Assembly: GCA_002205965.3 (NCBI GenBank)
Contig: NADL03000147.1
Coordinates: 62,001-126,000, forward strand
DNA: 64,000 bases
From: Kappaphycus alvarezii
Taxonomy: Eukaryota > Rhodophyta > Florideophyceae > Gigartinales > Solieriaceae
Direction of reading: 5' to 3'
In this document: positions 28,469 through 56,790 of the stretch, in pieces
How the letters are laid out: each line of letters begins with the position of its first letter
Numbering within the stretch: position 1 is the stretch's first letter
Notes under the pieces: generated by a model
Seen by the model: only the letters and a program-made list of their open reading frames with translations
Told to the model about the DNA's origin: nothing
The model's database searches: none
Program-made: the position numbers and the translations under genes

Positions 28469-29625
28469 CTAGCCGGCCACTCCCAAATCCTTTCCGGCAC
28501 CCGGCCCTTCAGGAGCGACCATTCTCACCCTCACCCTGTCCCCCTGCTTCCTTACCATACTAAGAAATGGTGCCATTTCCGCCTCTGTAGATATCCTCAC
28601 AACGTCTCCGTCCTCATCCTTGTAACTGACGTCAAACTTCTCTTCCATGTTAAACGCCTCTGCCAACTGCTCCTTCAACACCTTGAAAGAGCAACCATGC
28701 TCCACAAAAACACATCTTGTACTATTCTCCCACCCATACCTGCAAGTTGCCTTTACAAAGAAGCGACCATCACGATGCACCAGCGGGGCTTCCTCTCCTC
28801 TGCCAGCATCTATCGGCACTCCTCTGCCAGCATCTATCGGCACTCTCCTCCCGACTTCTACGCGTGTCCCATTCCTCTCAGAACCGTGTTCGATTCTGCC
28901 AGCCGAGGGCACAGGCTGCTTTCCATGTCGACTTCCTTTACCATCCAGCTTCCCCGACTCTGCATCCGCCCGTCTCGTCAACCTCGCGACGGAACCAGCA
29001 GCCGCTCTTTTACCCGCACCCGATTCCAACTCGACACCGACGCCACACCCACCCTTTGCCCCCCCATAGACCTTTCGTCCAAACCAGGCCAACTCAATAT
29101 CCCTCTGTTCGGTCCTAACGGCCAAGACCGGCCTCGCCAATTCCCTAACAGCGGCCGCGGAAATATGGCTCCACCTACGCTGCGGTTGTGTCCTTTTCTG
29201 TGAAGTTTTAGCCAAGCGTGTAGCAACGGGTTGTGACCTTGTTCGAGGTGCCGGGTTAGCGTCTGCATGCAAGACGGTGCGTCGAGAGCGGTTGCGTCGC
29301 GTGTGAGGATGGGAAGGGGCAAGACTGACGGGACGACGTGCTTGGGTGTGACGGAGACGGTCGCGACGAAGCTGTGCGAGGTTGCGATGGGTGGAGGCGG
29401 AGTTTGGAGGCTGCGGGGAGTTGGGCTCTGGAGGAGGGGGTGGGGACGGAGAGGGGGAGGCGTGGTCGGAGGAGGAGGAGGGGGAGGGGAGGAAGGGAGG
29501 AATACGGAGGTGGAACGGGGGTGGGGGTAGTGGCGACGGCGTTTGGGTAGCGGGGTATGGGGGTCGGCGGAGACGGTACGGGCGGGAGAGAGGGTACGCG
29601 GGCGGTTGCGAGGAGGGGTGAACAT
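28469..29625 (-). CDS. PB1-domain protein, finger-less member of the GATA-like/PB1 cluster
   Basis: The likely start is ATG 29625-29623 (MFTPPRNRPRTLSPAR...), resembling the Pro/Ser/Arg-rich N-terminus of the neighbour at 30884-32269. The C-terminal frame (29272-28469) is basic and Arg/Gly-rich. It carries an 8-residue duplicated block (VPIDAGRG twice) and ends in a PB1 domain (about 28768-28500). The PB1 has 'FFVKATCRYGWE' with the conserved basic Lys and the acidic OPCA loop 'YKDEDGDVVRIST'. PB1 domains mediate head-to-tail protein assembly. No C-x2-C...C-x2-C finger is visible. The N-terminal frame and the PB1 frame differ, so an unrecognised intron or a frameshift lies between about 29272 and 28978. 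It may be a pseudogene. A weak case can also be made that it is a PB1-only partner of the fingered paralogues. Confidence 0.6.
28795..28842. repeat. 24-bp tandem duplication inside the PB1 gene
   Basis: Two perfect copies of a 24-bp unit, equal to eight codons on the minus strand (VPIDAGRG). It keeps the reading frame. Confidence 0.9.
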
Positions 29626-30883
29626 GGCGTTTATGGTGTGAGTGGACCGAGAGATTAAAAGCAAGGGGGTGAGAGTATGGGTGGGGGGTTTCTTTGTCGG
29701 GGAGGAATTACGGGAGGGAGGAGAGGAGGCCAGCTGGCTTGGAAGGAGCGGTTGGAGTAGGAGGGGTGCTTGAGTATGAGAATGATTTGAAATGGACTGG
29801 GCTGTGGGGTCGCTTGTGCTTTGCTTTGCTGTGCTTTGCAATGTACTGCACTGTCCGCTGTTTCCCTATATTTAATGCAATGTGGACTGTAGTTTGGTGG
29901 TACTGTTCAGTACTGTACAGCTTGATCTGCTGCGGGACAATGCCAGACGCATGCATTCGGCGCAGGGCCATCCCTTCCCCTCTCTGTAGACTCGGCGAGT
30001 GCATTGAAATTGAATTCCAACTGCCTGGTCTACCGTAGAGATGAATTTCTTGTCAATTCCACCCAAACTTCCATCTCTTCTCCAGTAGAGTTTGTGTGGT
30101 TGTTACAGTACAGTAAAGTACAGTACGTGCCTCTGCAACAGGTGGCATACGGTAGGCATCGCAGAGCCACTCAAAAAGACCCAAATCTCCACAAAGATCT
30201 ATTTTGATCTTTGTAAAGATTTGGCATGTATCGTACAGTACAATACAGCTGTACAACTGTCAGTACTGTACATGTACTGTACTGGAGCATTACGAGTTGT
30301 ACAGTAAAGTACTGTACTGTACTGGTACAATGCAATACTGTAGAGTTAAAGTACTGCGCCCCAGACAGGCAAGAATCAAGAGCCACATCCGATCAACACT
30401 CTTCAATATGCTAATCATTGGATACTGCCTCACTCTCGGCACAACTCTGACAAGCAAATCGTCCACACCACCTACCATTGTCATCGCGTCAAATCTCAAC
30501 TATTCAATTACCATTCCTCTCATACCGGGGATGTCAATCAAACCTTTACCAAATCCCTTGGCCGAATTTCGTCCGCCACATCATCGCCAAACATTTCGGT
30601 GCGCAATCCAACACACTTTTCAATACCAATCCCCCCAAACTATCTTGACTGCCTCCGAAAACCGCACACCCAAGCATCGACATACGTCCTCATACGCCAA
30701 ACAATTTTTCCAACATCTGCGTGCAACTGCAACTCTTGAATCCCCTTTTCAAACCACTCATCTACTCATCAAACATTACTTGAAACCATTCACAAGACGC
30801 ACTGTACCACTAAAAGCACACACCACCCAACTTCATCCACTCACATATCCACCTCCCAACCCTCTTGCAACCCTTTTGCCTGG
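29626..30883. repeat. Intergenic spacer with dense (TGTAC)n/(GTACA)n repeat
   Basis: Spacer between two minus-strand PB1 genes. Pentamer clusters lie at 29840-29932, 30107-30136 and especially 30232-30352, where head-to-head runs could fold into hairpins. The adjoining 30360-30880 is strongly C-rich on the plus strand. No separate gene is supported; the long plus-strand frame at 30204-31064 overlaps the end of the neighbouring gene and looks like a composition artefact. Confidence 0.7.
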
Positions 30884-32269
30884 CTACACCAACACTTTCA
30901 TCCGTAGCGGCGCAAGCTTGTGTTCCTGCACAAGCTGGAACAATTCCTCCATGTCCTTTTCCGATGCAATCGTCACAAAGTCTCCCTCCTCATCTCGGTA
31001 CCGGATTCCGAAACTTCCCTCCAACCCAAACATGCTAACCAGCTCCTCGCAAAGTCCTTCATAAGTCCACTTCGAGTCTATTCTCAGCCTTCTCAAATCC
31101 CCATCCTTCTCCACCTTGACAGTGATCATCCCATGACTCATCATTCCATCCACCTTCTTCTCCCCCTCTTGATCACTGCTCTGTCCTACTCCCGCACTAC
31201 CCGCCACACCCTTCCTCCCCTTGGCCTGCACTCCATCCATTCCCGCACCTTCCACCTTGGCGTTCATCACTCTGGTACACGGCACCATGATTGCCGCTTC
31301 AACAGACGCCGTTTCCACGTCCTCATCCTCCCTCTTTGGAGCCGCCAAGCTACTTCCCGCCACTCCCTTATTCGCATCTCTCGCCCCGCTGAAGATTCTA
31401 TCGATATTCCGTCTACGTTCCAAGACAGGCACGATTCTTCTCTTTCTCCCCTCCCTGGAACCTCTCGGCCTTCCCCTTTTCCTCCCTCCCCTCTTCATCC
31501 CAACAAAGAAACCCTCCTTAATCTCTCCGATTGCATCCTCGCCATCCTCTCCATCCTCTCCGTCCTCAATCTCCTCTTCCACTTCCCCCCCACCTTCCGA
31601 CTCACTGGATACAACAATACTGGCCATCTTTCCCAAATCCACCGGCGGTGTTCTCCTCAACCTTTTCCTGCCATCATCACCGTCGACAATACTGTCCTCT
31701 TGCTTCCGCAAGACGCCCCTCATCACCGCGCCACCTCTCTTCCCGTTCTTTGGACCCCCCCTTCTGCTGGGAGGTACAGCGACGCTATTCTCCCTAAGCA
31801 ACTCGAGATCCTGCGGTGACCCCGTGATCGGAGTAACAATAGGGTTGGTCAAATCTCTTGTCAACCTCGTTGCACCGCGGTGTTTGACAGGAAACCCAGT
31901 CACCCGGACCGGCTTCCAGCCTGCTTTCCTCGAGGCGGAGACGGTGCCACACGGGCCCTGATACAAGACGACGCGACGGTGATAATAGAGGTTGTAGCAG
32001 CGGCGACAGAGGGTTTGCAAGCCGTCTGGACCTGTGTTCCACTGTGCGGTGCGGGTGGTGTGACAGACGGTGCGATAGCAGCGTTTGACGGAGGGTGTGG
32101 AGGAGGGCGGGGAGTGGGAGGTGGAGGGGGCGGTGATGGCGGACGAAGGTGGGATTGCGGGTTGTGGATCGGGGGATGCGGCGCGGGAGGGGGAGAGGAT
32201 TGGGGGAGGCCAGCGACGACGGGGGACCAAGATGGAGCCGGCGGGGGAGGAGGCGCGACTGAACGGCAT
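30884..32269 (-). CDS. GATA-like zinc finger / AT-hook / PB1 protein (461 aa)
   Basis: An uninterrupted 461-codon frame from ATG 32269-32267. The Pro/Ser-rich N-terminus is followed by one GATA-like finger with Cys64, Cys69, Cys88 and Cys91 (C-x4-C-x18-C-x2-C) and the core 'TGPDGLQTLCRRC'. Then comes the family extension 'VVLYQGPCGTVSASRKAGW' and 'VRVTGF' (97-126). A hydrophobic-acidic SUMO-interaction-like stretch (SIVVSSESEGGGE, about 217-229) precedes a Glu/Asp/Gly run. A basic RGRPRG AT-hook core lies at 265-270. A PB1 domain spans 381-461 with 'ITVKVEKDGDLRRLRI' and 'YRDEEGDFVTI', so both the basic and the acidic face are present. The likely role is a nuclear DNA-binding regulator able to oligomerise. 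The finger resembles fungal/plant type IVb GATA but lacks the TP-W-R block, so DNA specificity is uncertain. Nothing appears broken. Confidence 0.85.
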   Translation of the reverse strand: MPFSRASSPAGSILVPRRRWPPPILSPSRAASPDPQPAIPPSSAITAPSTSHSPPSSTPSVKRCYRTVCHTTRTAQWNTGPDGLQTLCRRCYNLYYHRRVVLYQGPCGTVSASRKAGWKPVRVTGFPVKHRGATRLTRDLTNPIVTPITGSPQDLELLRENSVAVPPSRRGGPKNGKRGGAVMRGVLRKQEDSIVDGDDGRKRLRRTPPVDLGKMASIVVSSESEGGGEVEEEIEDGEDGEDGEDAIGEIKEGFFVGMKRGGRKRGRPRGSREGRKRRIVPVLERRRNIDRIFSGARDANKGVAGSSLAAPKREDEDVETASVEAAIMVPCTRVMNAKVEGAGMDGVQAKGRKGVAGSAGVGQSSDQEGEKKVDGMMSHGMITVKVEKDGDLRRLRIDSKWTYEGLCEELVSMFGLEGSFGIRYRDEEGDFVTIASEKDMEELFQLVQEHKLAPLRMKVLV

Positions 32270-33108
32270 GGCGAGGATTGTGTGGAGGGGGGTAGGATGG
32301 AATGGCGGAGGGGAGGGATAACAGGTTGTGCGGTGTGTGGGGAGGTCGAGGACAGTTGGGTGGCGGGGCGGGGCAGGAGGTTGGGTGATGGGGGACGTGT
32401 TGGGGGATTATGGGGGCGATGTATGCGGGGCCGGGGAGGCGGGGAGAGGGGCAGGGGTGAGCCAGTGGCGCTTTATCAGCAGGAAAGAATGCATTCGGCG
32501 CAAGGCGAAAGCGGGTGCTGTTAACGCGGAGAGTAGCAGACGGCGAAATCCCGCCGTACAGTAACTAGTATGCAGGGCGGTTTTGAAATTTGACAAAACC
32601 ACGTTTATCGTTGTGATGTGGATCACAAGGGGACTCGACTTTTTTCTTTTTTTTTCCTTTTTTTGGGTTAAATAGAGGGACGACTGTCTTTTCGAGCTTG
32701 AAGTAGGAAATTTTATCCATTTTATCCAAATACGCGAATGATAAACGGTATCAGTGATTTGGTGGTACACGCTACTCCATTCACAGTTGGACAAGTGGAA
32801 TAAATTCGAAATGGGAAACTTTGTCTTGAAACAAATCTTCGTTTTTAGTCAGCACAACGCAGGATGTACTGTACAATACAGTACTTGTACTGTACATACA
32901 GTACAGAATCTCCGAGATTACAGACAAATCACAGTACTGTTCTGTATTGTATTGTACAGTAACAGTAACATTATTTGAGAAAGTGCCTAATTTACAGTAT
33001 AACATGTACAGTACCTTGGGCCTTGCATTCATTTACGCAAATAGATTCCCGTACTGTACTGTACTGTAGATACTATGCAGTATGTATTTATATCCTGAGT
33101 GCAGTTCT
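32270..33108. repeat. G-rich upstream region then (TGTAC)n/(GTACA)n clusters
   Basis: 32270-32530 is very G-rich on the plus strand (C-rich on the coding strand of the gene it precedes) and includes a TGATAA-type word on the minus strand at 32478-32473. Pentamer clusters occupy 32867-32965 and 33040-33075. No gene is supported. Confidence 0.65.
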
Positions 33109-34487: not shown

Positions 34488-35732
34488 ATGGCCATCGAGC
34501 CCTCCGCCGACGAGTTTCCTCCCCTGGAATTCGAGATGAAGGCCAGCAGCAACCATCCATCCTCGCCTGACAAAACTACCGCCGAGCCTACCTTGGTTGC
34601 ACCGGAGCAGCAACTATTGACCCCGGTCAAACTCGAACCCCAAACAACCACTCCCCTGCTTACCGCCTATGCCAACCCCGATCACATCTCACAGGCCCAC
34701 ATGCCTCTCACCGACACCGACTCCACTCACCCATCCCAAGTCGCCTCCGCATCTCCTCATCACCTCGTCCACACCCAATCGCAACAACTTTCCCAACCAA
34801 ACCACTCCACACAACCTCCTGCTTCCCCCCCTCAACAACATGACATGGACAATGACGCCATTCACCCAAGCAACCAGATTGTCGCCTTCCCCATGGAGCA
34901 CAGACCTCTGGACAATCAACAAACAACACCCCCTAGTCTCCAACCCGACCTGCCGCTCCCCGATCAGGAGCACCTACCCAATCCCCGCAACCTCTCCCGC
35001 CGCCGTGTTCCACCCGAGAGGCTCTCACCCTCTCTGGATGAGCCCCGTCCTCTAAAGATCTGCAAACGAGTCGAATGCGGTGCAATCGGCGTACGCAATT
35101 TATACAAGGGGCCCGACGGCCCCAGTACATTGTGCTATAACTGCTACATGAAATACCGTGCACTTCGCCTCGTCGTCTACATGCATCTCATCTCGGGTCA
35201 CATCTCCATTGCCCCGCATCCAGGTATGACTGCCATGCGTGTACTGGGCTTTGAACCGAGGTCCAAAGGACGGCTCCAACGACTTGAGCAGGCCGAGGTT
35301 GGTTCAACTGGAGGACAAGGAGGAGGACCACGAGTTGTTGGCACGCAGTCAGATGCGCGGGATGCAGAGTCGCGTCCGCAAGAGGCGCAGAGGCACTCCG
35401 CAGGCGACGGGGGAGCGTCAGAAGCGGCGCCGTTTGTCGCAACCACGCCCTTTGGCTGAGGGGTTGAAAGATGGCGAGGGGGTGTATGTCAAGGCCGAGT
35501 GGAGGTCGGATTTGAGGCGATTCCGTGTGCCGATCGGTGTCAGTTTACACGCGTTTCGGGAGGAGGTGCGCCGGGTGTGTTTCAGTGGAAGCGGGAGCAG
35601 TTGTTCTGTATCACGTTTAGGGATGAGTATGGTGACTATGTTCGGCTAGGAGAGCAGAGCAAGATGGCGCGCATGTTCGAGACAGCGGAGGACAAACCCA
35701 GCTCTGTCGTAAGAGTGAGAATTGTCTCCTAG
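34488..35732 (+). pseudogene. GATA-like zinc finger / PB1 protein with a pair of compensating frame changes
   Basis: ATG 34488 opens a Pro/Gln/Ser/His-rich N-terminus and one finger with Cys192, Cys197, Cys216 and Cys219 (C-x4-C-x18-C-x2-C; core 'KGPDGPSTLCYNC'). The extension 'LVVYMHLISGHISI.....MTAMRVLGFE' follows. After about 35255 the family-like continuation (a basic RKRRRG-type stretch, then 'VYVKAEWRSDLRRFRV', the start of PB1) is in the +1 frame. After about 35575 the rest of PB1 ('QLFCITFRDEYGDYVRLG') returns to the original frame and stops at 35732. The two shifts cancel. Explanations are a decaying gene, two indel errors, or unrecognised short introns. The first frame alone would give a 323-residue finger protein without PB1. 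Confidence 0.7.
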
Positions 35733-36837: not shown

Positions 36838-38559
36838 ATGCTTAGCACAAACCCTTACCCAGCACAACCTGTCGACAACTGCCTCCACACCGTACCCGTC
36901 CCTTACATTCACCGTTTCTTGAAATGGCCACATCACGCTACAACAAACGCTTCCGCTCAGATTCAGAATCGGAGTTCATATTGGACGGCTCCGATGATAT
37001 GCTTCGCCAAGGCTTGCTCGGCTTGCAAGAGAACCTCAACAATCGTAAACTGTCGAGGACCGGATGGCGTCAACACTCTTTGTTCCGCTTGTTACAAGCG
37101 TTATCGCTCCAAGAATCTGCGAATCTACCGATTGCCATCCGGAAGGCTTACTGCAACCAAGACAGTCGGAGCCACCCGCCTCATGGTCACGGGCTTCCCC
37201 TTCCAGATTAGAAGCAACTGGGTCGATACTGAGCGACCGAGTGTTCGAGTTGCAACAGCTGCTGAACATGCACGCTTGCCAAAACCAAAGAAATTTCGCA
37301 AGAAGAAAGTGCTCACTATCCCGAGTTCCAGCGACGAGGGCCAGTCGTCAGAGGAACCTGCGAGTGGTAGCAGGGGAGAAATGGATATTGGAAAGTGGTC
37401 AGCATCCAACTTTTTGTCCTGCATTGCATGTGGTACTGTTGGCAAGCCGCCTGATACTGGACCAGATGGCCCGCATACGCTGTGCGCCCAATGCGGACTG
37501 AGATACAGAAGTTTCCAGCTGCGGCTGTACAGACTGAGAAGCGGTCGCGTGACAGCTGAACCTTCCCCAAGGGCGTCCATGGTGCTTGCAACTGGATTCG
37601 AAGTGTATGGGATTGGATGCGACTGGCAACGGCCCCGTGTAAAGCCGGCGACGAGGCACCAACATGCCGTGGTCGCCCAGTTCGACAGGCTATGCCTCTC
37701 GTGCAGAAGGCAATATGATGCGTTGGGCACAGGGCCAGATGGGTATAAGACACTTTGCACAGCCTGCGGTGGAAGGTACTATCGTCAAGAACTTTGCGTG
37801 TTTCGGTCACCCGATGGCAGGGTTAGTGTGATGAGGAGGCCTGGTGCAAAAAGGGCGATTGTGATTGGGTTTGAACGAAGCGCACCCGACGTTTGCGGCA
37901 GATATGATTTGCGTTTTCCAATAGTTAGGATCGCGATGGCGGGAGAACACGCAAAGTTTCATTCCGGCGCCAACGGAGTCTGTGGGGCACGGATTGTCGA
38001 CCACCGGATGACTGACTATGACGAAGAAGTTGGGGAGGAGGTTGAGGGCACAGACCTGGGAAAGGACCAAGATTATGACAAGGAAAGTGGTGAATACGGG
38101 CGCGGGGACCTTACCGGAGAGTCGAACACGGATAAGAACAAATGGGGAATCTATGTTCCCAAAAAAGGAGTAGGTAGGCCTGTGCAGCTACTGGCAAGCA
38201 CAGGTAGCGATACGAACAAGGGCTCGTCTGGGGGGCGAAGGGCTAGGGATACATCCGGTACAGAGGAGAGACCACCAGCAACGAGACGAGATGAGAATTC
38301 AAGCTTTATTGTCAAAGCTACGTGCAGTTATGGGTGGGAGACAAAATTGAGGTACATATACGTTGCGTACGGTGTCAAGGTGACCTCCTTCAAGCAGGTC
38401 TTGAAAGAGACGTTCCGCATGGATGCCCCTTTTTCTATATGCTATAAGGACGAGGATGGGGATTCAATCCAGGTTAGTGAGGACGCCGATATGGCTCCGA
38501 TGTTTGCGCAGGCCAGGCATCGTCAGGGAGCATTACAAGTGCAGCTCAGGCCGCCATGA
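36838..38559 (+). CDS. Triple GATA-like zinc finger / PB1 protein (573 aa)
   Basis: The frame from ATG 36838 to stop 38559 is uninterrupted. It holds three copies of one module: fingers at Cys60-63-82-85, Cys195-198-216-219 and Cys286-289-307-310 (C-x2-C-x17/18-C-x2-C, each with GPDG..TLC..C). Each is followed by an 'L+.(Y/F)R.P.GR(L/V)(T/S)' strand pair and a 'V.GF' end. Ser/Glu-rich stretches separate them ('IPSSSDEGQSSEE' near 161-173). A long charged linker leads to a C-terminal PB1 domain (about 487-573) with 'FIVKATCSYGWE' and 'YKDEDGDSIQV'. The product should be a nuclear DNA- or protein-binding factor that assembles through PB1. The first ~55 residues look unlike a natural N-terminus. 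An ATG at 36924 in another frame begins a more plausible leader (MATSRYNKRFRSDSES...), so the true 5' exon structure is uncertain. It has the most fingers of the cluster. Confidence 0.85.
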   Translation: MLSTNPYPAQPVDNCLHTVPVPYIHRFLKWPHHATTNASAQIQNRSSYWTAPMICFAKACSACKRTSTIVNCRGPDGVNTLCSACYKRYRSKNLRIYRLPSGRLTATKTVGATRLMVTGFPFQIRSNWVDTERPSVRVATAAEHARLPKPKKFRKKKVLTIPSSSDEGQSSEEPASGSRGEMDIGKWSASNFLSCIACGTVGKPPDTGPDGPHTLCAQCGLRYRSFQLRLYRLRSGRVTAEPSPRASMVLATGFEVYGIGCDWQRPRVKPATRHQHAVVAQFDRLCLSCRRQYDALGTGPDGYKTLCTACGGRYYRQELCVFRSPDGRVSVMRRPGAKRAIVIGFERSAPDVCGRYDLRFPIVRIAMAGEHAKFHSGANGVCGARIVDHRMTDYDEEVGEEVEGTDLGKDQDYDKESGEYGRGDLTGESNTDKNKWGIYVPKKGVGRPVQLLASTGSDTNKGSSGGRRARDTSGTEERPPATRRDENSSFIVKATCSYGWETKLRYIYVAYGVKVTSFKQVLKETFRMDAPFSICYKDEDGDSIQVSEDADMAPMFAQARHRQGALQVQLRPP

Positions 38560-40934: not shown

Positions 40935-41585
40935 ATGACGTCCTGCACCACTTATTGCCCCGCCTGTGACAAACACCATCGTCAAGCACAAATCTCTGAC
41001 AACCCCATGGCCACCACCCTCTGCCAATCCTGTACCAACTCCCTTCTCCTCAACTCCCGCTTCATCCCTCGTACAGGCTGTGTGCTCCCGGTCGAGCAAC
41101 GCCGCGTTCGCCCCAGCCATAGAACCCACGATAACTGGCATCGCAATCGCTCGCGCGATCAGAATAGCTTTCCCGAGCACCACCTCCCTCCTGCTTTGTC
41201 GCGTTCGGCTGTACCTCCACCCCCTGCTGTGCAAACTCGGGATGAACAGCGAGACGAAGCCGGGACGCCCAGCGGATCGTCCTCGACTTTCACTGCGGGT
41301 GAACAGGGTGAAGGTGATGAGGTGGACATGTGTTTGAAATGCCGCGCGACTGGGTGTGAGAGGCTGCGCTCGGGACCGGATGGGTATTGTACGCTTTGTA
41401 ACAAGTGCGGGGTGCAATACATGCGGCTTCGGTTGCCGTTGTACCAAACGGAGGACGGGAAGGTGACGGTTGTGCAGGGGGAAGATAGGGTACGGGTTAG
41501 TCATTTGGGGTTTGAGAAAAAGAGGCAAGGGAGGAGTGCACGGGATTTGACTCGACCGGTGGTGGAGAGGGTTGAGGAAAGATGA
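40935..41585 (+). CDS. Two-finger GATA-like protein without PB1 (216 aa)
   Basis: The start at ATG 40935 (MTSCTTYCPACDK) is chosen because the tandem-array paralogues start at the equivalent ATG (MSSCTTHCPSCDK). An in-frame extension to 40707 lacks similarity. Finger 1 has Cys8-11-30-33, is spaced like a GATA finger but lacks GPDG. Finger 2 has Cys133-136-155-158 with 'SGPDGYCTLCNKC', then 'LPLYQTEDGKVTVVQGEDRVRVSHLGF', the family extension. A Pro-rich and an acidic spacer lie between. The frame ends at 'VERVEER'. Compared with the array copies there is one extra base at about 41577. Past it, an open frame to 41796 continues the shared 'VTGENEIVGSQGEGGEE' tail, so the tail was lost by a 1-nt insertion. 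Probably functional as a short form, and the closest single-copy relative of the array genes. Confidence 0.75.
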   Translation: MTSCTTYCPACDKHHRQAQISDNPMATTLCQSCTNSLLLNSRFIPRTGCVLPVEQRRVRPSHRTHDNWHRNRSRDQNSFPEHHLPPALSRSAVPPPPAVQTRDEQRDEAGTPSGSSSTFTAGEQGEGDEVDMCLKCRATGCERLRSGPDGYCTLCNKCGVQYMRLRLPLYQTEDGKVTVVQGEDRVRVSHLGFEKKRQGRSARDLTRPVVERVEER

Positions 41586-42254: not shown

Positions 42255-42290
42255 TCAATATGAAAGTATCAAACTTTCACACCCCTGTAC

Positions 42291-42722: not shown

Positions 42723-42906
42723 ACCATCATTGCCACATTTACAGCCTTTCATGTGTTGATTTACTGTCAGAAATTTATTCCCTTCATTACACGTGGCAGT
42801 CATGATCTCCATTTCTTTTCCTATTATTCTGAAAAAGAATATATTTTTATATTATTTTTTATTAATATTCGCGGCGCAACTACCTTTCTTAAACCCCATA
42901 TACCAG

Positions 42907-44527: not shown

Positions 44528-46232
44528 ATGAGCTCAGCAGAATCGGGCCCATACTCTCCTAGTATCAACCCCGAGAGGAAAGCATCAAACCCGTCCCTCC
44601 TTTCCCATCGCACACTACATCAAACCAAACATTACCGAGGCCCCCTCACCATGCCCCGTCGAACAAATGCACAGGAGTGCTTCGAGAGTTCCATCGGGGC
44701 AATCAACCATAGAGCAACGACACGCGATGCCGCTGCAACTGCCCGACTATCTCTCTCCATGTTTCACTATCGACTCAAACGTTCTCACCAAGAGCCCGAA
44801 GGCAGATGGAATTTATCAGTCGAACTGGAAAAAGAGTTTTCTCCCTGATAAACCACAATACAATGAATAGATTTCCGCTAGGCAGTGAGGATGTGGATGA
44901 AGCCATTCAACATATCGTTCAGGCAATGCCTGCAAAACGCCGTTCCAAGTTTCTATTCCTGAACAATCGCCTTGGTGCCAACTTTCTCCGTAACTTTCTA
45001 GACAGGAATAAACAAGACATTCGCTTCGGAAAGCCGTCACAAGAGGAGGACAAACGATAGAGGGAACGCAATATAGAAACGCTTACTAAGAATTTCGCAG
45101 CTTTAGAGAAGATCATCAAAGAGAATGAAGTTGATGAATCGCGTGTTCCCAACATTGATGAAAGCGGTCTTTGCCCGAGTGAAAGCCGAGGATGGGTTCG
45201 TATGAAAGCCCATATGACTCGAGGGAGTGCAGATGTTCGACTTACTCCCACATTTCGGAACATCGATCATTTCACATTGCTACCGGTTGATTTTTCAAAC
45301 GGTGATGTCGGTGCTCTGTTCTTTGTTTTTAAGGGATGCTCAATCAAGCATCGAGTACTCAAATATTGTGAAGTGGATACTATTGACAAGTTTCTGATCG
45401 GTCTGCTCTACGGTTCTAAAGTTATCACTCGTGGTGATATTGCTTGTGTCAATGGCAACGTGTTTTAAAAGTGGGCGCATACTTTTTTGTCTGGTAACAG
45501 TAAATTGAAGCTCACATTAGATAGTTATAGAAGTGATATGGGTTTTACTGTTTTCAAATTTTTACATGATAACGGTTTTATTGCGTCTGCAATCCCATCT
45601 CATACAAAAAGATCAACAAAATCGTTGGATGTTGGTCTGTTCTACACTTTTAAAGAATATATTCGCCAAGGGGTACAATCTATCGTACAATTTGATTGCA
45701 ATAATGCATATAGTGTTTTTACCTATCTGAAGATCGTTCAGGAGGCGTACGACACGGCCTACAAGCTGAGCACGCTTATCAGCGCATTTTCAAAGGCACG
45801 TATTCATATTGTTGACACTACTTCAATGCTACCTGTTTCCCAGCTTCCGGATGACCCTCAAAGATGCAGTGTACTGATTATGCAGCAATTAATTGTCCTA
45901 CTGAAAGTTAAGCGGCGAACGAAAAGAGAAAGCAGAAGCATTAAACAATTTTTTTACGGCAAGAATTTGTTGACACCAGTTTAGGCTTGGTTATTACGTC
46001 TGAATATGCTCTTAATCTGGCGCAACGTTGTGAAATGGAACTGACTGCTCGCATACAGGAGCGCAATGCGCGGAGTGCTGCAGCTGCAGCAAGAAATGCC
46101 TTGAAGAGAGATATAATTCGATCTGAAAGGCTACTGTTTGAGAGCCAGTCTTTGGCCTATTGTGTGCGCATGAATAGTGATCCCGATATCGCACCGCGGG
46201 GTTTGGCAATTAGGCGGCAGATGGCTAATTAG
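44528..46232 (+). pseudogene. Pogo-type (DDE_1) transposase, decayed
   Basis: A leader frame (44528-44848) has a psq/HTH-like segment ('AINHRATTRDAAATARLSLSM'). The main frame (about 44806-45984) then gives 'VPNIDESGLCPSESRGWVR' (first catalytic Asp), 'KLTLDSYRSDMGFTVFKFL' (second) and 'IPSHTKRSTKSLDVGLF..FKEYI' (third), the order of pogo/Tigger DDE_1 enzymes. Stops at 45058-45060 (TAG) and 45466-45468 (TAA) interrupt the main frame, and the N-terminal helix domain and a charged C-terminal coil (45987-46232) are in other frames. It is therefore inactive. It follows directly on the split repeat whose 3' end supplies its apparent first 13 codons. Confidence 0.8.
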
Positions 46233-46951: not shown

Positions 46952-47017
46952 ACGCCATTTCCAGTGATGGCTGATAGCTTGGCGCAATGGGAATGACACC
47001 TGGATGTTAATCTCTAG
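46952..47017 (+). repeat. Diverged copy of a 65-bp segment flanking the array's first finger fragment
   Basis: 'catttccagt..tggctgatagcttgg' through 'atgacacct.gatgtt.atctcta' occurs here and again at 47404-47468 (and in every later unit). The zinc-finger tail at 47021-47403 therefore sits between two direct copies. This copy has about five differences, so it is older than the array. Confidence 0.85.
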
Positions 47018-47020
47018 AAA

Positions 47021-47456
47021 ATGCCGTGCGACTGGATGTGAGAGGCTGCGCTCGGGGCCGAATGGGCATTATACGCTTTGTAACAAGTGTGGGGTGCGGT
47101 ATATGCGGCTTCGGTTGCTTTTGCAACAGACGGGAGGCGGGAAGGAGACGGTTTTTGTGAAGGGGGAGGAAAGGGCCAGGGTTAGTCATTTGGAGTTTGA
47201 CAAAGGGAAGCAAGGGAGGAGTGCACCGGATTTGACTCGACCGGTGGTGGAGAGGGTTGAGGAGGATGAGGGGGGTACAGTGAGGGTGACGGGGGAGAAT
47301 GAGATATTCGGGAGTCAGGGGGAGGGCGGGGAAGAAAACAAAGGAGATACGAGCGGTAATGTGCGAGGTAGGTTTAGTGCGGAGTTGGGTGTAAAGAAGG
47401 TGAAACGTCATTTCCAGTGGTGGCTGATAGCTTGGGGCAATGGGTATGACACCTAG
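47021..47456 (+). pseudogene. Array copy 0: second finger and tail only
   Basis: It starts inside the finger ('KCRATGCERLRSGPNGHYTLCNKC'; the first zinc Cys is not encoded) and keeps the extension 'VFVKGEERARVSHLEF', the acidic tail 'VTGENEIFGSQGEGGEE' and 'GRFSAELGVKKV'. It lacks the promoter and first finger. It is the truncated left member of the array. After 'GVKKV' the frame runs into the inserted 65-bp segment and stops at 47456. Confidence 0.85.
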
Positions 47457-47571
47457 ATGTTTATCTCTAAAACATATCTTCCTTGTAGTCATTTTTGTTC
47501 ACAAAATGACCATGGATGCATTTTAAGGAATGTTGTATGTTTTTGAGACTTTTAAGTAAGCAGAAAGGTAT

Positions 47572-48009
47572 ATGCAAGCCATAAAGTGCGGCACCATCCT
47601 TTTCCGTTCAACGCAAACAGCTTTTTACAAAATAAATTCATTCTCACACAACTGCATACAACAGGAAAACTTCGCCAAGCGTGGATCTACAACAGATGCA
47701 GTTAATTCTGTTCTTGCTCAATTCAATTTGAATAGAGGACGAAAAAGGCATCCGATTCTTGTGGATCATGGACTTTACATGACCTCTACCATTAAGGATT
47801 TGGTTAAGGTTCTGGTTATGGACAAATATAGGATAGGCGCCCCATTTTTGGAGGGATTTCAGCTGTATGCTGAGAAGGTGATACCTTTTCATTCAACATT
47901 AGAAGTAGTTTATATCGACCAGGCTAGAAAGGTGACTGTCATGTTTAATTTTCCCCTTATTTCCCTGAAAATTCAAGCTTACGAACACCATATATTTGGC
48001 TACTCTTAG
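47572..48009 (+). CDS. Orphan 145-aa ORF, array unit 1
   Basis: ATG-initiated 145-codon frame, identical in translation in all four units. Visible features: an N-terminal 'FRSTQTAFYKINSFSH', a central basic 'LNRGRKRHPILVDHGLYM', and 'LVKVLVMDKYRIGAPFLEGF'. No signal peptide, membrane segment or family I recognise. It may be a fragment of an inserted element rather than a gene. It lies ~115 bp after the finger-gene tail, in the same orientation. Confidence 0.4.
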   Translation: MQAIKCGTILFRSTQTAFYKINSFSHNCIQQENFAKRGSTTDAVNSVLAQFNLNRGRKRHPILVDHGLYMTSTIKDLVKVLVMDKYRIGAPFLEGFQLYAEKVIPFHSTLEVVYIDQARKVTVMFNFPLISLKIQAYEHHIFGYS

Positions 48010-49115
48010 GCTGAGACGACGGCAAAATGCCCATAGTGATATGCGGGGACGATACAGGCTTCGAGCCGATGCTAGTCGAAGTCAAGAGGTAATTTATTTG
48101 CCCTTCTATTCAAGATAAATATGAAATTGAACGGGAAAGAATCGAAAGCTCGGAAAGTCTTCGTGGCTTGCAAAAGTATTTCAACAGTATTTAACGGTCT
48201 CAAATAATCATATAACTACATGAAGTACATTTAAACCGAGAATGTATTACAAAAGCCTCCCTTTATATATTCCAAGACAACTCACTTGATACTACTGGTC
48301 AGCGGAACTATGAGAAGAGCCATGAGTTTGTTATTGAGAGGCATTGGCGGCTTGAAGCCACTTCAGATGGCTGGAAGGATGCCAACGTGGTAATAAAGGA
48401 AAGCGTCGCTGGTCCTGAAGTGTCATAATTGGTTGAGAATGGGATATATGGGACATTTTGATGTCTTCCCTGTAGAATTTACTATTCATCCTAAATAGCG
48501 GCCAAATTTTGAACTGTATTTGATTATTGGGGTACATTATCTCCAATTGTATCCACTCAAGGGCAAGAATGTTTTTTACCAGGAAATATGAAATCAATTT
48601 CACCCTAGAACTGTGTTCATCATTTCAGATCAAAAAGGCCGATAATATTATTCCAAATCTTTGGTTTAAACGGCTGACTCGATAAAAAATCTAAATTCAT
48701 TCCCAGGTTTGTTTTGGCTCGGGTCCAAATTAGTCAGTCATTGTTTGTTATTTCTTTCAGATGGAGTATTTAGATATTCTTCAACTTTTTCAGCATAAAA
48801 TAGGGAAGGGAAAACGGTATAAGTATTAGACAAGATATAAAGCTATAGAACATCCTTTCATTGTCCAGATCAACCGCCAGAACATGATCCATCGACGTAC
48901 ACCACGTTATTAAGACCTCCTCTACCACTATATGTCAACGCAAATATCCTTTCATTGTGTCTTTGATATCGCAAAAAGAATACAAATCGTCATGAAGCAG
49001 CCTCTGACCTCATACTACCACCACATCCCTTCGTAAACGATTCTCCTTCTCCAAAAGCTAACTTCCCCACTCCTACCCATTCACACTCCAAAAACCTCTC
49101 CTCTTTCCATCGACC

Positions 49116-49808
49116 ATGTCTTCTTGCACTACTCATTGCCCCAGTTGCGACAAACCCATTCGTCAAGCGCGAATCTCTGACAACACAATCACCGCCACCC
49201 TCTGCCAATCCTGTACTACCTCCCTTCTTCTCAACTCCCGTCTCTTCCCTCTCAAAGGATGCGTGCTTCCGTTCGAACAACGCCGCGTCCGCCCAAGCCC
49301 TAGAATCAACGATAAGTTTCCTCGCAATCGCTCGCACGATCAGAATAGCTTTCACGAGCACCATTTCACCTCCTGCTCCTGCTTTGTCGCGTTCGGCCTT
49401 ACCACCACCCCTGCCGTGCAAACTGGGGATGAACAAAGGCAAGACAACGCTAGGAGGCCCGGCGGATCCTCATCGGCTTTAACCGCGGGTGAGCAGGGTG
49501 AAGATGATGAGGTGGACATGTGTTTAAAATGCCGCGCGACTGGATGTGAGAGGCTGCGCTCGGGGCCGAATGGGCATTATACGCTTTGTAACAAGTGTGG
49601 GGTGCGGTATATGCGGCTTCGGTTGCTTTTGCAACAGACGGGAGGCGGGAAGGAGACGGTTTTTGTGAAGGGGGAGGAAAGGGCCAGGGTTAGTCATTTG
49701 GAGTTTGACAAAGGGAAGCAAGGGAGGAGTGCACCGGATTTGACTCGACCGGTGGTGGAGAGGGTTGAGGAGGATGGGGGGTACAGTGAGGGTGACGGGG
49801 GAGAATGA
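49116..49808 (+). CDS. Array copy A: two-finger GATA-like protein (230 aa)
   Basis: ATG 49116 (MSSCTTHCPSCDK) with a C-rich leader. Finger 1 is Cys8-11-30-33 (no GPDG) and finger 2 is 'CLKCRATGCERLRSGPNG' followed by 'HYTLCNKC', with the extension ending 'VSHLEF'. This is the only array copy in which both fingers are in one frame. It has four Cs at 49407-49410 where copies B and C have five, which offsets an older upstream shift shared by all copies, so residues between the fingers (FTSCSCFVAFGLTTTP) are out of the ancestral frame. A 2-nt loss near 49775 ends it at 'EEDGGYSEGDGGE'. No PB1. It is likely the only array copy able to make the full two-finger protein. Confidence 0.7.
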   Translation: MSSCTTHCPSCDKPIRQARISDNTITATLCQSCTTSLLLNSRLFPLKGCVLPFEQRRVRPSPRINDKFPRNRSHDQNSFHEHHFTSCSCFVAFGLTTTPAVQTGDEQRQDNARRPGGSSSALTAGEQGEDDEVDMCLKCRATGCERLRSGPNGHYTLCNKCGVRYMRLRLLLQQTGGGKETVFVKGEERARVSHLEFDKGKQGRSAPDLTRPVVERVEEDGGYSEGDGGE

Positions 49809-50076
49809 GATAGTCGGGAGTCAGGGGAGGGCGGGGAAGAAAACAAAGGAGATACGAGCGGTAATGTGCGAGGTAGGTTTAGTGCGGAGTTGGGTGTAAA
49901 GAAGGTGAAACGTCATTTCCAGTGGTGGCTGATAGCTTGGGGCAATGGGTATGACACCTAGATGTTTATCTCTAAAACATATCTTCCTTGTAGTCATTTT
50001 TGTTCACAAAATGACCATGGATGCATTTTAAGGAATGTTGTATGTTTTTGAGACTTTTAAGTAAGCAGAAAGGTAT

Positions 50077-50514
50077 ATGCAAGCCATAAAGTGCGGCACC
50101 ATCCTTTTCCGTTCAACGCAAACAGCTTTTTACAAAATAAATTCATTCTCACACAACTGCATACAACAGGAAAACTTCGCCAAGCGTGGATCTACAACAG
50201 ATGCAGTTAATTCTGTTCTTGCTCAATTCAATTTGAATAGAGGACGAAAAAGGCATCCGATTCTTGTGGATCATGGACTTTACATGACCTCTACCATTAA
50301 GGATTTGGTTAAGGTTCTGGTTATGGACAAATATAGGATAGGCGCCCCATTTTTGGAGGGATTTCAGCTGTATGCTGAGAAGGTGATACCTTTTCATTCA
50401 ACATTAGAAGTAGTTTATATCGACCAGGCTAGAAAGGTGACTGTCATGTTTAATTTTCCCCTTATTTCCCTGAAAATTCAAGCTTACGAACACCATATAT
50501 TTGGCTACTCTTAG
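50077..50514 (+). CDS. Orphan 145-aa ORF, array unit 2
   Basis: Same translation as the unit 1 copy at 47572-48009; no family recognised. It lies downstream of array copy A of the finger gene in the same orientation. Confidence 0.4.
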   Translation: MQAIKCGTILFRSTQTAFYKINSFSHNCIQQENFAKRGSTTDAVNSVLAQFNLNRGRKRHPILVDHGLYMTSTIKDLVKVLVMDKYRIGAPFLEGFQLYAEKVIPFHSTLEVVYIDQARKVTVMFNFPLISLKIQAYEHHIFGYS

Positions 50515-51620
50515 GCTGAGACGACGGCAAAATGCCCATAATGATATGCGGGGACGATACAGGCTTCGAGCCGATGCTAGTCGAAGTCAAGAGGTAATTT
50601 ATTTGCCCTTCTATTCAAGATAAATATGAAATTGAACGGGAAAGAATCGAAAGCTCGGAAAGTCTTCGTGGCTTGCAAAAGTATTTCAACAGTATTTAAC
50701 GGTCTCAAATAATCATATAACTACATGAAGTACATTTAAACCGAGAATGTATTACAAAAGCCTCCCTTTATATATTCCAAGACAACTCACTTGATACTAC
50801 TGGTCAGCGGAACTATGAGAAGAGCCATGAGTTTGTTATTGAGAGGCATTGGCGGCTTGAAGCCACTTCAGATGGCTGGAAGGATGCCAACGTGGTAATA
50901 AAGGAAAGCGTCGCTGGTCCTGAAGTGTCATAATTGGTTGAGAATGGGATATATGGGACATTTTGATGTCTTCCCTGTAGAATTTACTATTCATCCTAAA
51001 TAGCGGCCAAATTTTGAACTGTATTTGATTATTGGGGTACATTATCTCCAATTGTATCCACTCAAGGGCAAGAATGTTTTTTACCAGGAAATATGAAATC
51101 AATTTCACCCTAGAACTGTGTTCATCATTTCAGATCAAAAAGGCCGATAATATTATTCCAAATCTTTGGTTTAAACGGCTGACTCGATAAAAAATCTAAA
51201 TTCATTCCCAGGTTTGTTTTGGCTCGGGTCCAAATTAGTCAGTCATTGTTTGTTATTTCTTTCAGATGGAGTATTTAGATATTCTTCAACTTTTTCAGCA
51301 TAAAATAGGGAAGGGAAAACGGTATAAGTATTAGACAAGATATAAAGCTATAGAACATCCTTTCATTGTCCAGATCAACCGCCAGAACATGATCCATCGA
51401 CGTACACCACGTTATTAAGACCTCCTCTACCACTATATGTCAACGCAAATATCCTTTCATTGTGTCTTTGATATCGCAAAAAGAATACAAATCGTCATGA
51501 AGCAGCCTCTGACCTCATACTACCACCACATCCCTTCGTAAACGATTCTCCTTCTCCAAAAGCTAACTTCCCCACTCCTACCCATTCACACTCCAAAAAC
51601 CTCTCCTCTTTCCATCGACC

Positions 51621-52470
51621 ATGTCTTCTTGCACTACTCATTGCCCCAGTTGCGACAAACCCATTCGTCAAGCGCGAATCTCTGACAACACAATCACCGC
51701 CACCCTCTGCCAATCCTGTACTACCTCCCTTCTTCTCAACTCCCGTCTCTTCCCTCTCAAAGGATGCGTGCTTCCGTTCGAACAACGCCGCGTCCGCCCA
51801 AGCCCTAGAATCAACGATAAGTTTCCTCGCAATCGCTCGCACGATCAGAATAGCTTTCACGAGCACCATTTCACCTCCTGCTCCTGCTTTGTCGCGTTCG
51901 GCCTTACCACCACCCCCTGCCGTGCAAACTGGGGATGAACAAAGGCAAGACAACGCTAGGAGGCCCGGCGGATCCTCATCGGCTTTAACCGCGGGTGAGC
52001 AGGGTGAAGATGATGAGGTGGACATGTGTTTAAAATGCCGCGCGACTGGATGTGAGAGGCTGCGCTCGGGGCCGAATGGGCATTATACGCTTTGTAACAA
52101 GTGTGGGGTGCGGTATATGCGGCTTCGGTTGCTTTTGCAACAGACGGGAGGCGGGAAGGAGACGGTTTTTGTGAAGGGGGAGGAAAGGGCCAGGGTTAGT
52201 CATTTGGAGTTTGACAAAGGGAAGCAAGGGAGGAGTGCACCGGATTTGACTCGACCGGTGGTGGAGAGGGTTGAGGAGGATGAGGGGGGTACAGTGAGGG
52301 TGACGGGGGAGAATGAGATAGTCGGGAGTCAGGGGGAGGGCGGGGAAGAAAACAAAGGAGATACGAGCGGTAATGTGCGAGGTAGGTTTAGTGCGGAGTT
52401 GGGTGTAAAGAAGGTGAAACGTCATTTCCAGTGGTGGCTGATAGCTTGGGGCAATGGGTATGACACCTAG
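51621..52470 (+). pseudogene. Array copy B: two-finger gene split by a frame change
   Basis: Same start and first finger as copy A, but a run of five Cs keeps the first frame out of phase with the second finger. The first frame stops at 51938 ('TTTPCRANWG'). The second-finger frame is open upstream from about 51889 ('SRSALPPPPAVQT', the ancestral reading as in the gene at 40935) to 52470, with the full acidic tail ending 'HFQWWLIAWGNGYDT' read from the inserted segment. It could yield two separate one-finger products or none. Confidence 0.75.
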
Positions 52471-52585
52471 ATGTTTATCTCTAAAACATATCTTCCTTGT
52501 AGTCATTTTTGTTCACAAAATGACCATGGATGCATTTTAAGGAATGTTGTATGTTTTTGAGACTTTTAAGTAAGCAGAAAGGTAT

Positions 52586-53023
52586 ATGCAAGCCATAAAG
52601 TGCGGCACCATCCTTTTCCGTTCAACGCAAACAGCTTTTTACAAAATAAATTCATTCTCACACAACTGCATACAACAGGAAAACTTCGCCAAGCGTGGAT
52701 CTACAACAGATGCAGTTAATTCTGTTCTTGCTCAATTCAATTTGAATAGAGGACGAAAAAGGCATCCGATTCTTGTGGATCATGGACTTTACATGACCTC
52801 TACCATTAAGGATTTGGTTAAGGTTCTGGTTATGGACAAATATAGGATAGGCGCCCCATTTTTGGAGGGATTTCAGCTGTATGCTGAGAAGGTGATACCT
52901 TTTCATTCAACATTAGAAGTAGTTTATATCGACCAGGCTAGAAAGGTGACTGTCATGTTTAATTTTCCCCTTATTTCCCTGAAAATTCAAGCTTACGAAC
53001 ACCATATATTTGGCTACTCTTAG
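52586..53023 (+). CDS. Orphan 145-aa ORF, array unit 3
   Basis: Same translation as the unit 1 copy; no family recognised. Confidence 0.4.
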   Translation: MQAIKCGTILFRSTQTAFYKINSFSHNCIQQENFAKRGSTTDAVNSVLAQFNLNRGRKRHPILVDHGLYMTSTIKDLVKVLVMDKYRIGAPFLEGFQLYAEKVIPFHSTLEVVYIDQARKVTVMFNFPLISLKIQAYEHHIFGYS

Positions 53024-54128
53024 GCTGAGACGACGGCAAAATGCCCATAGTGATATGCGGGGACGATACAGGCTTCGAGCCGATGCTAGTCGAAGTCAAG
53101 AGGTAATTTATTTGCCCTTCTATTCAAGATAAATATGAAATTGAACGGGAAAGAATCGAAAGCTCGGAAAGTCTTCGTGGCTTGCAAAAGTATTTCAACA
53201 GTATTTAACGGTCTCAAATAATCATATAACTACATGAAGTACATTTAAACCGAGAATGTATTACAAAAGCCTCCCTTTATATATTCCAAGACAACTCACT
53301 TGATACTACTGGTCAGCGGAACTATGAGAAGAGCCATGAGTTTGTTATTGAGAGGCATTGGCGGCTTGAAGCCACTTCAGATGGCTGGAAGGATGCCAAC
53401 GTGGTAATAAAGGAAAGCGTCGCTGGTCCTGAAGTGTCATAATTGGTTGAGAATGGGATATATGGGACATTTTGATGTCTTCCCTGTAGAATTTACTATT
53501 CATCCTAAATAGCGGCCAAATTTTGAACTGTATTTGATTATTGGGGTACATTATCTCCAATTGTATCCACTAAGGGCAAGAATGTTTTTTACCAGGAAAT
53601 ATGAAATCAATTTCACCCTAGAACTGTGTTCATCATTTCAGATCAAAAAGGCCGATAATATTATTCCAAATCTTTGGTTTAAACGGCTGACTCGATAAAA
53701 AATCTAAATTCATTCCCAGGTTTGTTTTGGCTCGGGTCCAAATTAGTCAGTCATTGTTTGTTATTTCTTTCAGATGGAGTATTTAGATATTCTTCAACTT
53801 TTTCAGCATAAAATAGGGAAGGGAAAACGGTATAAGTATTAGACAAGATATAAAGCTATAGAACATCCTTTCATTGTCCAGATCAACCGCCAGAACATGA
53901 TCCATCGACGTACACCACGTTATTAAGACCTCCTCTACCACTATATGTCAACGCAAATATCCTTTCATTGTGTCTTTGATATCGCAAAAAGAATACAAAT
54001 CGTCATGAAGCAGCCTCTGACCTCATACTACCACCACATCCCTTCGTAAACGATTCTCCTTCTCCAAAAGCTAACTTCCCCACTCCTACCCATTCACACT
54101 CCAAAAACCTCTCCTCTTTCCATCGACC

Positions 54129-54978
54129 ATGTCTTCTTGCACTACTCATTGCCCCAGTTGCGACAAACCCATTCGTCAAGCGCGAATCTCTGACAACACA
54201 ATCACCGCCACCCTCTGCCAATCCTGTACTACCTCCCTTCTTCTCAACTCCCGTCTCTTCCCTCTCAAAGGATGCGTGCTTCCGTTCGAACAACGCCGCG
54301 TCCGCCCAAGCCCTAGAATCAACGATAAGTTTCCTCGCAATCGCTCGCACGATCAGAATAGCTTTCACGAGCACCATTTCACCTCCTGCTCCTGCTTTGT
54401 CGCGTTCGGCCTTACCACCACCCCCTGCCGTGCAAACTGGGGATGAACAAAGGCAAGACAACGCTAGGAGGCCCGGCGGATCCTCATCGGCTTTAACCGC
54501 GGGTGAGCAGGGTGAAGATGATGAGGTGGACATGTGTTTAAAATGCCGCGCGACTGGATGTGAGAGGCTGCGCTCGGGGCCGAATGGGCATTATACGCTT
54601 TGTAACAAGTGTGGGGTGCGGTATATGCGGCTTCGGTTGCTTTTGCAACAGACGGGAGGCGGGAAGGAGACGGTTTTTGTGAAGGGGGAGGAAAGGGCCA
54701 GGGTTAGTCATTTGGAGTTTGACAAAGGGAAGCAAGGGAGGAGTGCACCGGATTTGACTCGACCGGTGGTGGAGAGGGTTGAGGAGGATGAGGGGGGTAC
54801 AGTGAGGGTGACGGGGGAGAATGAGATAGTCGGGAGTCAGGGGGAGGGCGGGGAAGAAAACAAAGGAGATACGAGCGGTAATGTGCGAGGTAGGTTTAGT
54901 GCGGAGTTGGGTGTAAAGAAGGTGAAACGTCATTTCCAGTGGTGGCTGATAGCTTGGGGCAATGGGTATGACACCTAG
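54129..54978 (+). pseudogene. Array copy C: two-finger gene split by a frame change
   Basis: Structurally the same as copy B: the first frame ends at 54446 and the second-finger frame ends at 54978, with the same five-C run. No base difference that changes the reading was seen between B and C. Confidence 0.75.
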
Positions 54979-55093
54979 ATGTTTATCTCTAAAACATATC
55001 TTCCTTGTAGTCATTTTTGTTCACAAAATGACCATGGATGCATTTTAAGGAATGTTGTATGTTTTTGAGACTTTTAAGTAAGCAGAAAGGTAT

Positions 55094-55531
55094 ATGCAAG
55101 CCATAAAGTGCGGCACCATCCTTTTCCGTTCAACGCAAACAGCTTTTTACAAAATAAATTCATTCTCACACAACTGCATACAACAGGAAAACTTCGCCAA
55201 GCGTGGATCTACAACAGATGCAGTTAATTCTGTTCTTGCTCAATTCAATTTGAATAGAGGACGAAAAAGGCATCCGATTCTTGTGGATCATGGACTTTAC
55301 ATGACCTCTACCATTAAGGATTTGGTTAAGGTTCTGGTTATGGACAAATATAGGATAGGCGCCCCATTTTTGGAGGGATTTCAGCTGTATGCTGAGAAGG
55401 TGATACCTTTTCATTCAACATTAGAAGTAGTTTATATCGACCAGGCTAGAAAGGTGACTGTCATGTTTAATTTTCCCCTTATTTCCCTGAAAATTCAAGC
55501 TTACGAACACCATATATTTGGCTACTCTTAG
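55094..55531 (+). CDS. Orphan 145-aa ORF, array unit 4 (partial unit)
   Basis: Same translation as the other three. The unit continues to about 56478 and then breaks off before the promoter of a further finger-gene copy. Confidence 0.4.
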   Translation: MQAIKCGTILFRSTQTAFYKINSFSHNCIQQENFAKRGSTTDAVNSVLAQFNLNRGRKRHPILVDHGLYMTSTIKDLVKVLVMDKYRIGAPFLEGFQLYAEKVIPFHSTLEVVYIDQARKVTVMFNFPLISLKIQAYEHHIFGYS

Positions 55532-56478
55532 GCTGAGACGACGGCAAAATGCCCATAGTGATATGCGGGGACGATACAGGCTTCGAGCCGATGCTAGTCG
55601 AAGTCAAGAGGTAATTTATTTGCCCTTCTATTCAAGATAAATATGAAATTGAACGGGAAAGAATCGAAAGCTCGGAAAGTCTTCGTGGCTTGCAAAAGTA
55701 TTTCAACAGTATTTAACGGTCTCAAATAATCATATAACTACATGAAGTACATTTAAACCGAGAATGTATTACAAAAGCCTCCCTTTATATATTCCAAGAC
55801 AACTCACTTGATACTACTGGTCAGCGGAACTATGAGAAGAGCCATGAGTTTGTTATTGAGAGGCATTGGCGGCTTGAAGCCACTTCAGATGGCTGGAAGG
55901 ATGCCAACGTGGTAATAAAGGAAAGCGTCGCTGGTCCTGAAGTGTCATAATTGGTTGAGAATGGGATATATGGGACATTTTGATGTCTTCCCTGTAGAAT
56001 TTACTATTCATCCTAAATAGCGGCCAAATTTTGAACTGTATTTGATTATTGGGGTACATTATCTCCAATTGTATCCACTTAAGGGCAAGAATGTTTTTAC
56101 CAGGAAATATGAAATCAATTTCACCCTAGAACTGTGTTCATCATTTCAGATCAAAAAGGCCGATAATATTATTCCAAATCTTTGGTTTAAACGGCTGACT
56201 CGATAAAAAATCTAAATTCATTCCCAGGTTTGTTTTGGCTCGGGTCCAAATTAGTCATTCATTGTTTGTTATTTCTTTCAGATGGAGTATTTAGATATTC
56301 TTCAACTTTTTCAGCATAAAATAGGGAAGGGAAAACGGTATAAGTATTAGACAAGATATAAAGCTATAGAACATCCTTTCATTGTCCAGATCAACCGCCA
56401 GAACATGATCCATCGACGTACATCGCGTTATTAAGACCTCCTCTACCACTATATGTCAATGCAAATATCCTTCATTGT

Positions 56479-56790
56479 GTCTAGAGAATGACGGGGCGAC
56501 TGAGGGAGTAATTGTGATCTCTGGCTCTTCTGAGGAAGATGAAGAGAGGGGTGTAGAGAAGAATGACGAATATGAGGGGGATGGAGACATGGAAAGTGCC
56601 GGAATAGTAGGGAATGGGCCGGAAAATATGGACCAGGGTTTCCCGACTCTGGAACCGGATGGGAGCATCCTCAGCGGTCTTGATATTTAGCAGGAGGCAA
56701 TGGAGAACTCTAAGCCGTTCGCGGATATTTGTGGGGACTGTTTGGGTGCAAGGGATAATTTGAGGGAGTTTTTTGGCTTTGATATGGAGG
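56479..56790 (+). pseudogene. Displaced acidic/SIM-like tail at the array's right edge
   Basis: Immediately after the last partial unit an open frame reads 'ENDGATEGVIVISGSSEEDEE', a hydrophobic-Ser-acidic SUMO-interaction-like stretch, then Glu/Asp/Gly-rich sequence and 'DGSILSGLDI' with a stop at 56688-56690. Past the stop the same frame continues 'GDCLGA'. The 30.9-32.3-kb gene has a similar 'SIVVSSESEGGGEVEEE' stretch between finger and PB1, so I infer this is the tail of the finger gene that the array interrupted. A homologous relic lies on the minus strand at 5880-6240. A solo LTR was later inserted six bases downstream. Confidence 0.55.

Follow-up and report, generated by a model that had tools for sequence, protein, structure and literature searches.

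GATA-like finger and PB1 genes in the window

The DNA analyzed here, called the window, is a stretch of 64,000 nucleotides from contig NADL03000147.1 of the Kappaphycus alvarezii assembly GCA_002205965.3. It harbors a family of genes that combine GATA-derived zinc fingers with a PB1 domain, comprising five gene loci within 28.4-41.6 kb and, at 47.0-56.4 kb, a tandem array (Table 1; the loci are numbered 1, 2, 3, 5 and 6, there is no gene 4). Window frames were scanned with Pfam at the curated cut-offs of 23.6 bits for PB1 (PF00564) and 26.8 bits for GATA (PF00320), with the finger pattern C..C (8-30) G[PA][DNEK]G .. LC..C and with two hidden Markov models (HMMs) of the family. Units of gene 5 were among those used to train the finger HMM, and stretches of genes 2 and 5 among those used for the PB1 HMM, so that scores of these genes with the respective model do not count as independent; neither training set contained genes 1, 3 or 6. 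A scan with NCBIfam gave nothing useful.

The finger loci and the array announced by the sequence-only reading were recovered by both pattern and HMM. The pattern was present in genes 2, 3, 5 (three fingers) and 6 and in all four array units except the first, which fitted only a looser version. The finger HMM detected 10 units in the window (gene 2, 64 bits; gene 3, 54; gene 5, 95, 102 and 107; gene 6, 66.9; the four array units, 39-43), whereas 20 shuffled windows gave no match to either HMM at E<=0.01. PB1 stretches were found by the family HMM in genes 1, 2, 3 (two pieces) and 5, while gene 6 and the array had none. The Pfam profile confirmed the C-termini of genes 1, 2 and 5 (38.4, 50 and 39.4 bits). 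Pfam GATA exceeded its cut-off in gene 5 with the three fingers taken together (33.8 bits) and, in the genome-wide search, in gene 2 (30.0 bits).

Table 1. Finger and PB1 loci in the window (positions within the 64,000 nucleotides)
Feature	Position	Strand	Description
gene 1	28472..29707	-	PB1-only paralogue; PB1 28520-28762; Pfam PB1 1.2e-9
gene 2	30884..32269	-	461 amino acids, one open frame; Pfam PB1 2.9e-13, GATA 1.2e-5
gene 2 domains		-	finger 31997-32080, its unit extending to ~31871; PB1 30887-31147 at the C-terminus
gene 3 finger part	34488..35459	+	one finger 35061-35144, unit 35070-35273; Pfam GATA 0.012
gene 3 PB1 pieces	35464..35729	+	35482-35574 and 35598-35726, in two further frames
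gene 5	36994..38559	+	finger units 37009-37245, 37417-37641, 37687-37917; PB1 38296-38556
gene 6	40935..41585	+	single family unit 41328-41534; PB1 absent; Pfam GATA 9.6e-4 (below cut-off)
tandem array	47018..56379	+	four units of ~2.5 kb (last shorter), all carrying a gene 6-like finger and none a PB1

Gene 1 did not disclose a finger in any of the six frames: its best score was 0.3 bits, against 63.7 for the positive control, gene 2. The N-terminal region of gene 1 is uncertain; another frame offers a plausible start. With the family HMM, the two PB1 pieces of gene 3 reached 14.9 and 28.7 bits, the one piece scanned with Pfam gave no match, and the copy on the other haplotype (L014) reached 17.2 bits, which is under the PB1 cut-off. 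The true N-terminus of gene 5 is probably encoded in another frame from about 36925. Short intergenic repeats of the GTACTGTAC type occur at 30200-30350, 32865-32904 and 13941-13966.

Gene 6 was also considered as a two-finger protein, which we rejected. Its N-terminal motif CPAC...TLCQSC has no GPDG loop, and the family HMM does not match it. Pfam gave only DUF7879 for it (E 0.0031, under cut-off), and in an array copy part of the corresponding stretch scored 4.1 bits with the family HMM, so a relationship of this C2C2 motif to the family fingers is doubtful. Thus, of the finger numbers 0, 1, 2 and 3 proposed for the window, 0, 1 and 3 were found there, and two-finger members are present elsewhere in the genome.

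The array units are spaced by 2505-2509 bases and differ pairwise by 1-4 mismatches and 2-4 gaps across 1837-2507 bases. In the stretch C467:120-150 kb of the other haplotype the array was not seen, one gene 6 copy being located there. Further gene 6-like DNA exists on C467 (109.9-112.0 kb), C658, C121 (two long matches) and C595. Local amplification in the recent past explains the array most simply; it could also be an artefact of assembly. The region between gene 6 and the array contains pieces of a DDE transposase, presumably of the pogo/Tigger type, at 45061-45984 (PF03184 at 45469-45984, slightly below its cut-off with E 7.7e-4). A Tc5-type transposase DNA-binding domain (PF03221, E 7.2e-5) lies at 12950-13573 on the minus strand. 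The open frame of 449 amino acids at 42893-44242 had no Pfam match; we take it to resemble the C-terminal part of a non-LTR (long terminal repeat) retroelement.

The family across the genome

The assembly searched comprises 336 Mb in 884 contigs, and all family counts are lower bounds. It apparently contains two haplotypes: the cluster is present in inverted orientation on contig C467, with pieces over window positions 26.6-42.3 kb being 90.6 to 95.0% identical. At least 25 PB1 matches were obtained, 14 of which have a family finger unit at the same locus, sometimes in another frame. These are genes 2 and 5 plus the C467 copy of each (4), C667 and C467:293 kb (2), C456 and C512 (2), C122 and C509 (2), and C32, C38 (twice) and C710 (4). 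The other 11 matches are gene 1 and its copy (2), C513:568 kb and C636:222 kb (2), C636:217 kb and C513:573 kb (2), and L004, L016, L017, L018 and L019 (5). Pfam identified a ZZ domain at C513:568 kb; L004 was viewed across 3.2 kb only. Gene 3 with its copy and a gene at C710:460 kb, which has two fingers and a PB1 of 19.5 bits (under cut-off), stand outside the 25. What had been taken for a local cluster is therefore a genome-wide family. Finger and PB1 share a single open frame in genes 2 and 5, C667 and C467:293 kb, C456, C122/C509 and C710, that is, in members of each of six groups.

GATA matches numbered at least 29. Eleven loci (C690, C691, C513, C636, C858, C594, C761, C68, C813, C33, C782) had no PB1 in a scan of about 3 kb, which can miss weak PB1s, as it did at C710:460 kb. 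Ten of them are ordinary GATA fingers by reading, C761 being unread. Two matches, C146:45 kb and C467:216 kb, are family-like units (67-68 bits) with no PB1 seen, and the remaining 16 are family members or array copies. The unit at C146:45472-45576 resides in an open frame of 1361 amino acids about 16 kb before the window.

Relatives in other genomes were found as proteins, one from EukProt and the rest from a source labelled lgn. A search with the gene 5 protein yielded six proteins at E<=0.01 (6185 candidates), 38 to 81% identical and all containing PB1. P0002 and P0007 have three complete fingers, P0004 starts inside finger 1, and P0003, P0005 and P0006 start after it; the order finger-then-PB1 is common to P0002, P0004 and P0007. 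For gene 2, scoring was limited to the 7985 candidates with most words in common and gave P0009 (66% identical) and P0010 (33%), both with PB1 and both starting past the zinc finger. A profile search with seven sequences returned no proteins beyond the same six, a result confined to proteins sharing exact words and saying nothing of a wider absence. The family is widespread in this genome, and three fingers followed by PB1 also occur in proteins of other genomes.

The sequences are likely to come from a fungus, an early-branching one. RPB2 from contig C590 gave scores of 1299 bits with 3h0g, 1272 with 1i3q and 1265 with 28jc, which we take to be the S. pombe, S. cerevisiae and mammalian proteins, respectively; these scores are compatible with such a host, not decisive. 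Contig C556 (L057) carries an RNA polymerase beta-like frame and, after it, another frame that, in our assumption, reads like the start of a bacterial beta-prime, so the assembly may contain bacterial contigs.

Fingers, PB1 faces and the proposed function

The four-cysteine spacing of the fingers together with GPxG..LC..C is that of a GATA zinc finger, and each unit continues in a conserved tail of about 50 residues. A similar tail is present in the canonical GATA factor L028 of the same genome, which gave 62.8 bits with the family finger HMM. The PB1 stretches conform to the beta-grasp fold; that of gene 2 matched PKC-iota (1vd2, E 8.1e-7) with lysine and acidic loop aligned. According to the alignment, PB1 is two-faced, with the basic lysine and the acidic loop, in genes 1, 2, 5 and C667. 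Four such tails had been claimed for the window, of which those of genes 1, 2 and 5 hold; the PB1 of gene 3 lies in pieces. PB1 of C456 and C122 is acid-only, without the lysine, and in the two copies of C710 the acidic loop is degraded. Such differing types are what heterotypic pairing among the paralogues would need. In the PB1 tree, gene 1 groups with gene 5 at 91/87, a moderate support below the 95/80 mark. Since gene 1 has a PB1 without a finger and groups in this way, it is a candidate partner or cap. Seven of the 13 inner branches of the tree are under 80, so that it is compatible with a single as well as with several origins of the finger-PB1 joining.

We infer that the family members are nuclear regulators with GATA-derived DNA-binding fingers and PB1-mediated oligomerization, a reading to which we assign a probability of roughly two in three. 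One to three fingers, each with its conserved tail, would contact DNA in the nucleus, and the C-terminal PB1 would link copies head to tail through contact of the basic face with the acidic loop. Weak contacts of single fingers could thereby be summed across repeated sites, with paralogues mixing in the chains. The gene 1 product, a two-faced PB1 without finger, may pair with such chains or cap them.

Several results weigh against this reading. The core tryptophan of GATA fingers is kept in 5 of 12 aligned units (gene 2, both fingers of C667, and one finger each of C710 and C122) and is absent from gene 3, all three fingers of gene 5, and gene 6, so that gene 2 alone among the six aligned window fingers retains it. 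Pfam GATA remained under cut-off in the window scans of genes 2 (25.2 bits), 3 (15.6) and 6 (19.1), likewise in the two array copies scanned. Sequence comparison of gene 5 with PDB was weak (GATA18, E 0.0067; NBR1 PB1, 0.44). The AlphaFold check succeeded in part, the full-length model of gene 5 having a mean pLDDT (predicted local distance difference test score) of 42 and its PB1 alone being usable. WGATAR sites were not enriched in the window (124 found vs 136.6 expected), a count that says nothing on binding. Finally, the frames of gene 3 are disrupted in both haplotype copies, at different places.

The loss of the tryptophan and the low Pfam scores would also suit fingers that do not bind DNA but serve as protein-binding zinc modules, making the PB1 proteins scaffolds rather than transcription factors. 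In line with this, Foldseek gave no match of the finger unit at E<=0.001: GATA18 came first (E 0.22, probability 0.99) and GATA3 fourth (E 1.3), with fold alignments to GATA of only 32-37 columns. However, the two-finger paralogue C667 and the C710:460 kb gene keep the tryptophan and score 53.9 and 44.4 bits as Pfam GATA, and the tail recurs on the canonical factor L028. We therefore consider scaffolds rather unlikely.

Constraint and frame breaks

Still less probable, in our view, is that the cluster is a graveyard of recently duplicated, decaying copies, some on mobile elements, with little function. The disruption of gene 3, the near-identical array units and the nearby transposase pieces are in its favor, as is gene 5, whose window copy changes frame before the first finger; the C467 copy is in one frame there and broken elsewhere. 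To set against this, mismatches between the haplotypes were sorted by codon position (first/second/third) in six gene stretches and two intergenic stretches. Gene 1 gave 9/8/30, gene 2 3/4/22 and gene 5 5/2/10, the intergenic controls 21/30/22 and 20/26/25. The C667/C467 locus showed 7/6/20 without indels, C456/C512 20/17/37 with 10 indels, and C122/C509 9/1/8 (PB1 part only). Genes 1, 2, 5 and the C667 gene are thus clearly under codon-level constraint. The test did not demonstrate constraint for genes 3 (finger part 8/6/11, a weak bias; PB1 piece 2/0/2), 6 (8/5/13) and C122, and decay may be the explanation for gene 3, for gene 6 and for the array. Moreover, 49 of the 60 indels across the six gene stretches are single bases absent from the C467 copy, as sequencing error gives, which makes the frame breaks weak evidence for pseudogenes. 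The conservation of relatives in other genomes likewise argues against decay.

That finger and PB1 were joined by accident, through adjacent genes or read-through in one assembly, is nearly refuted: although the genes were read in six frames only and several copies have the two parts in different frames, the open frame shared by members of all six groups and the same order in three proteins from other genomes speak against it.

Comparison with known systems

We conclude that the DNA-binding regulators proposed here join two known parts in a family that is real, conserved and wider than first seen. Like the GATA factors (PF00320), the window fingers have the spacing C-x2-C-x17/18-C-x2-C with GPDG..TLC..C, and much of the family tail recurs in the canonical GATA factor L028. 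They differ by the core tryptophan, mostly lost in the window, by the extra conserved tail, the C-terminal PB1 and the presence of up to three units. PB1 is joined to a kinase in PKC-iota and to an autophagy receptor in NBR1, partner domains that differ from GATA-like fingers.

A survey of 12 proteomes lists the fungal PB1 families Bem1, Cdc24, NoxR and Mug70, none of which is described there, in the part of the text available, with a DNA-binding domain (PMC7051960). The word GATA is absent from the available main text of this survey, and the word PB1 from that of a survey of fungal transcription factors (PMC5415576). In agreement with the sequence-only reading, which knew of no fungal GATA-PB1 family, we found no fungal description of one in the literature searched, which left most subscription papers and all bioRxiv preprints outside its scope and included no domain-architecture database. 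Among 5.39 million texts, two contained both 'GATA zinc finger' and 'PB1 domain'; judged by title and start of the abstract, one is on a rice antiporter and the other on drought in cowpea. If the host is fungal, the family would add one more to the four PB1 families given for the 12 proteomes in the part of that survey available (PMC7051960).

As in the plant ARF, Aux/IAA and NIN-like proteins, the presumed DNA-binding part lies upstream and PB1 at the C-terminus. Hormone and nitrate signalling in plants offers the best-known examples of a DNA-binding domain paired with PB1. The family finger is of another kind than that of ARF and NIN-like proteins, and neither B3 nor RWP-RK was present in Pfam scans of the window and paralogue proteins. 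The PB1-only gene 1 beside the family members resembles the Aux/IAA layout (PMC7051960). Tentatively, and with doubts that outweigh our confidence, the family might be a non-plant counterpart of the ARF-Aux/IAA module, with GATA-derived binders carrying two-faced, acid-only and possibly basic-only PB1 types and gene 1 as PB1-only partner. It would then have arisen independently, expanded with loss and gain of fingers, and formed a combinatorial code by PB1 pairing. Were it such an independent GATA-based case, PB1 oligomerization would appear as a general route to graded, mixable regulators, and the family would provide a comparison group for the question why ARF-type systems have PB1-only partners.
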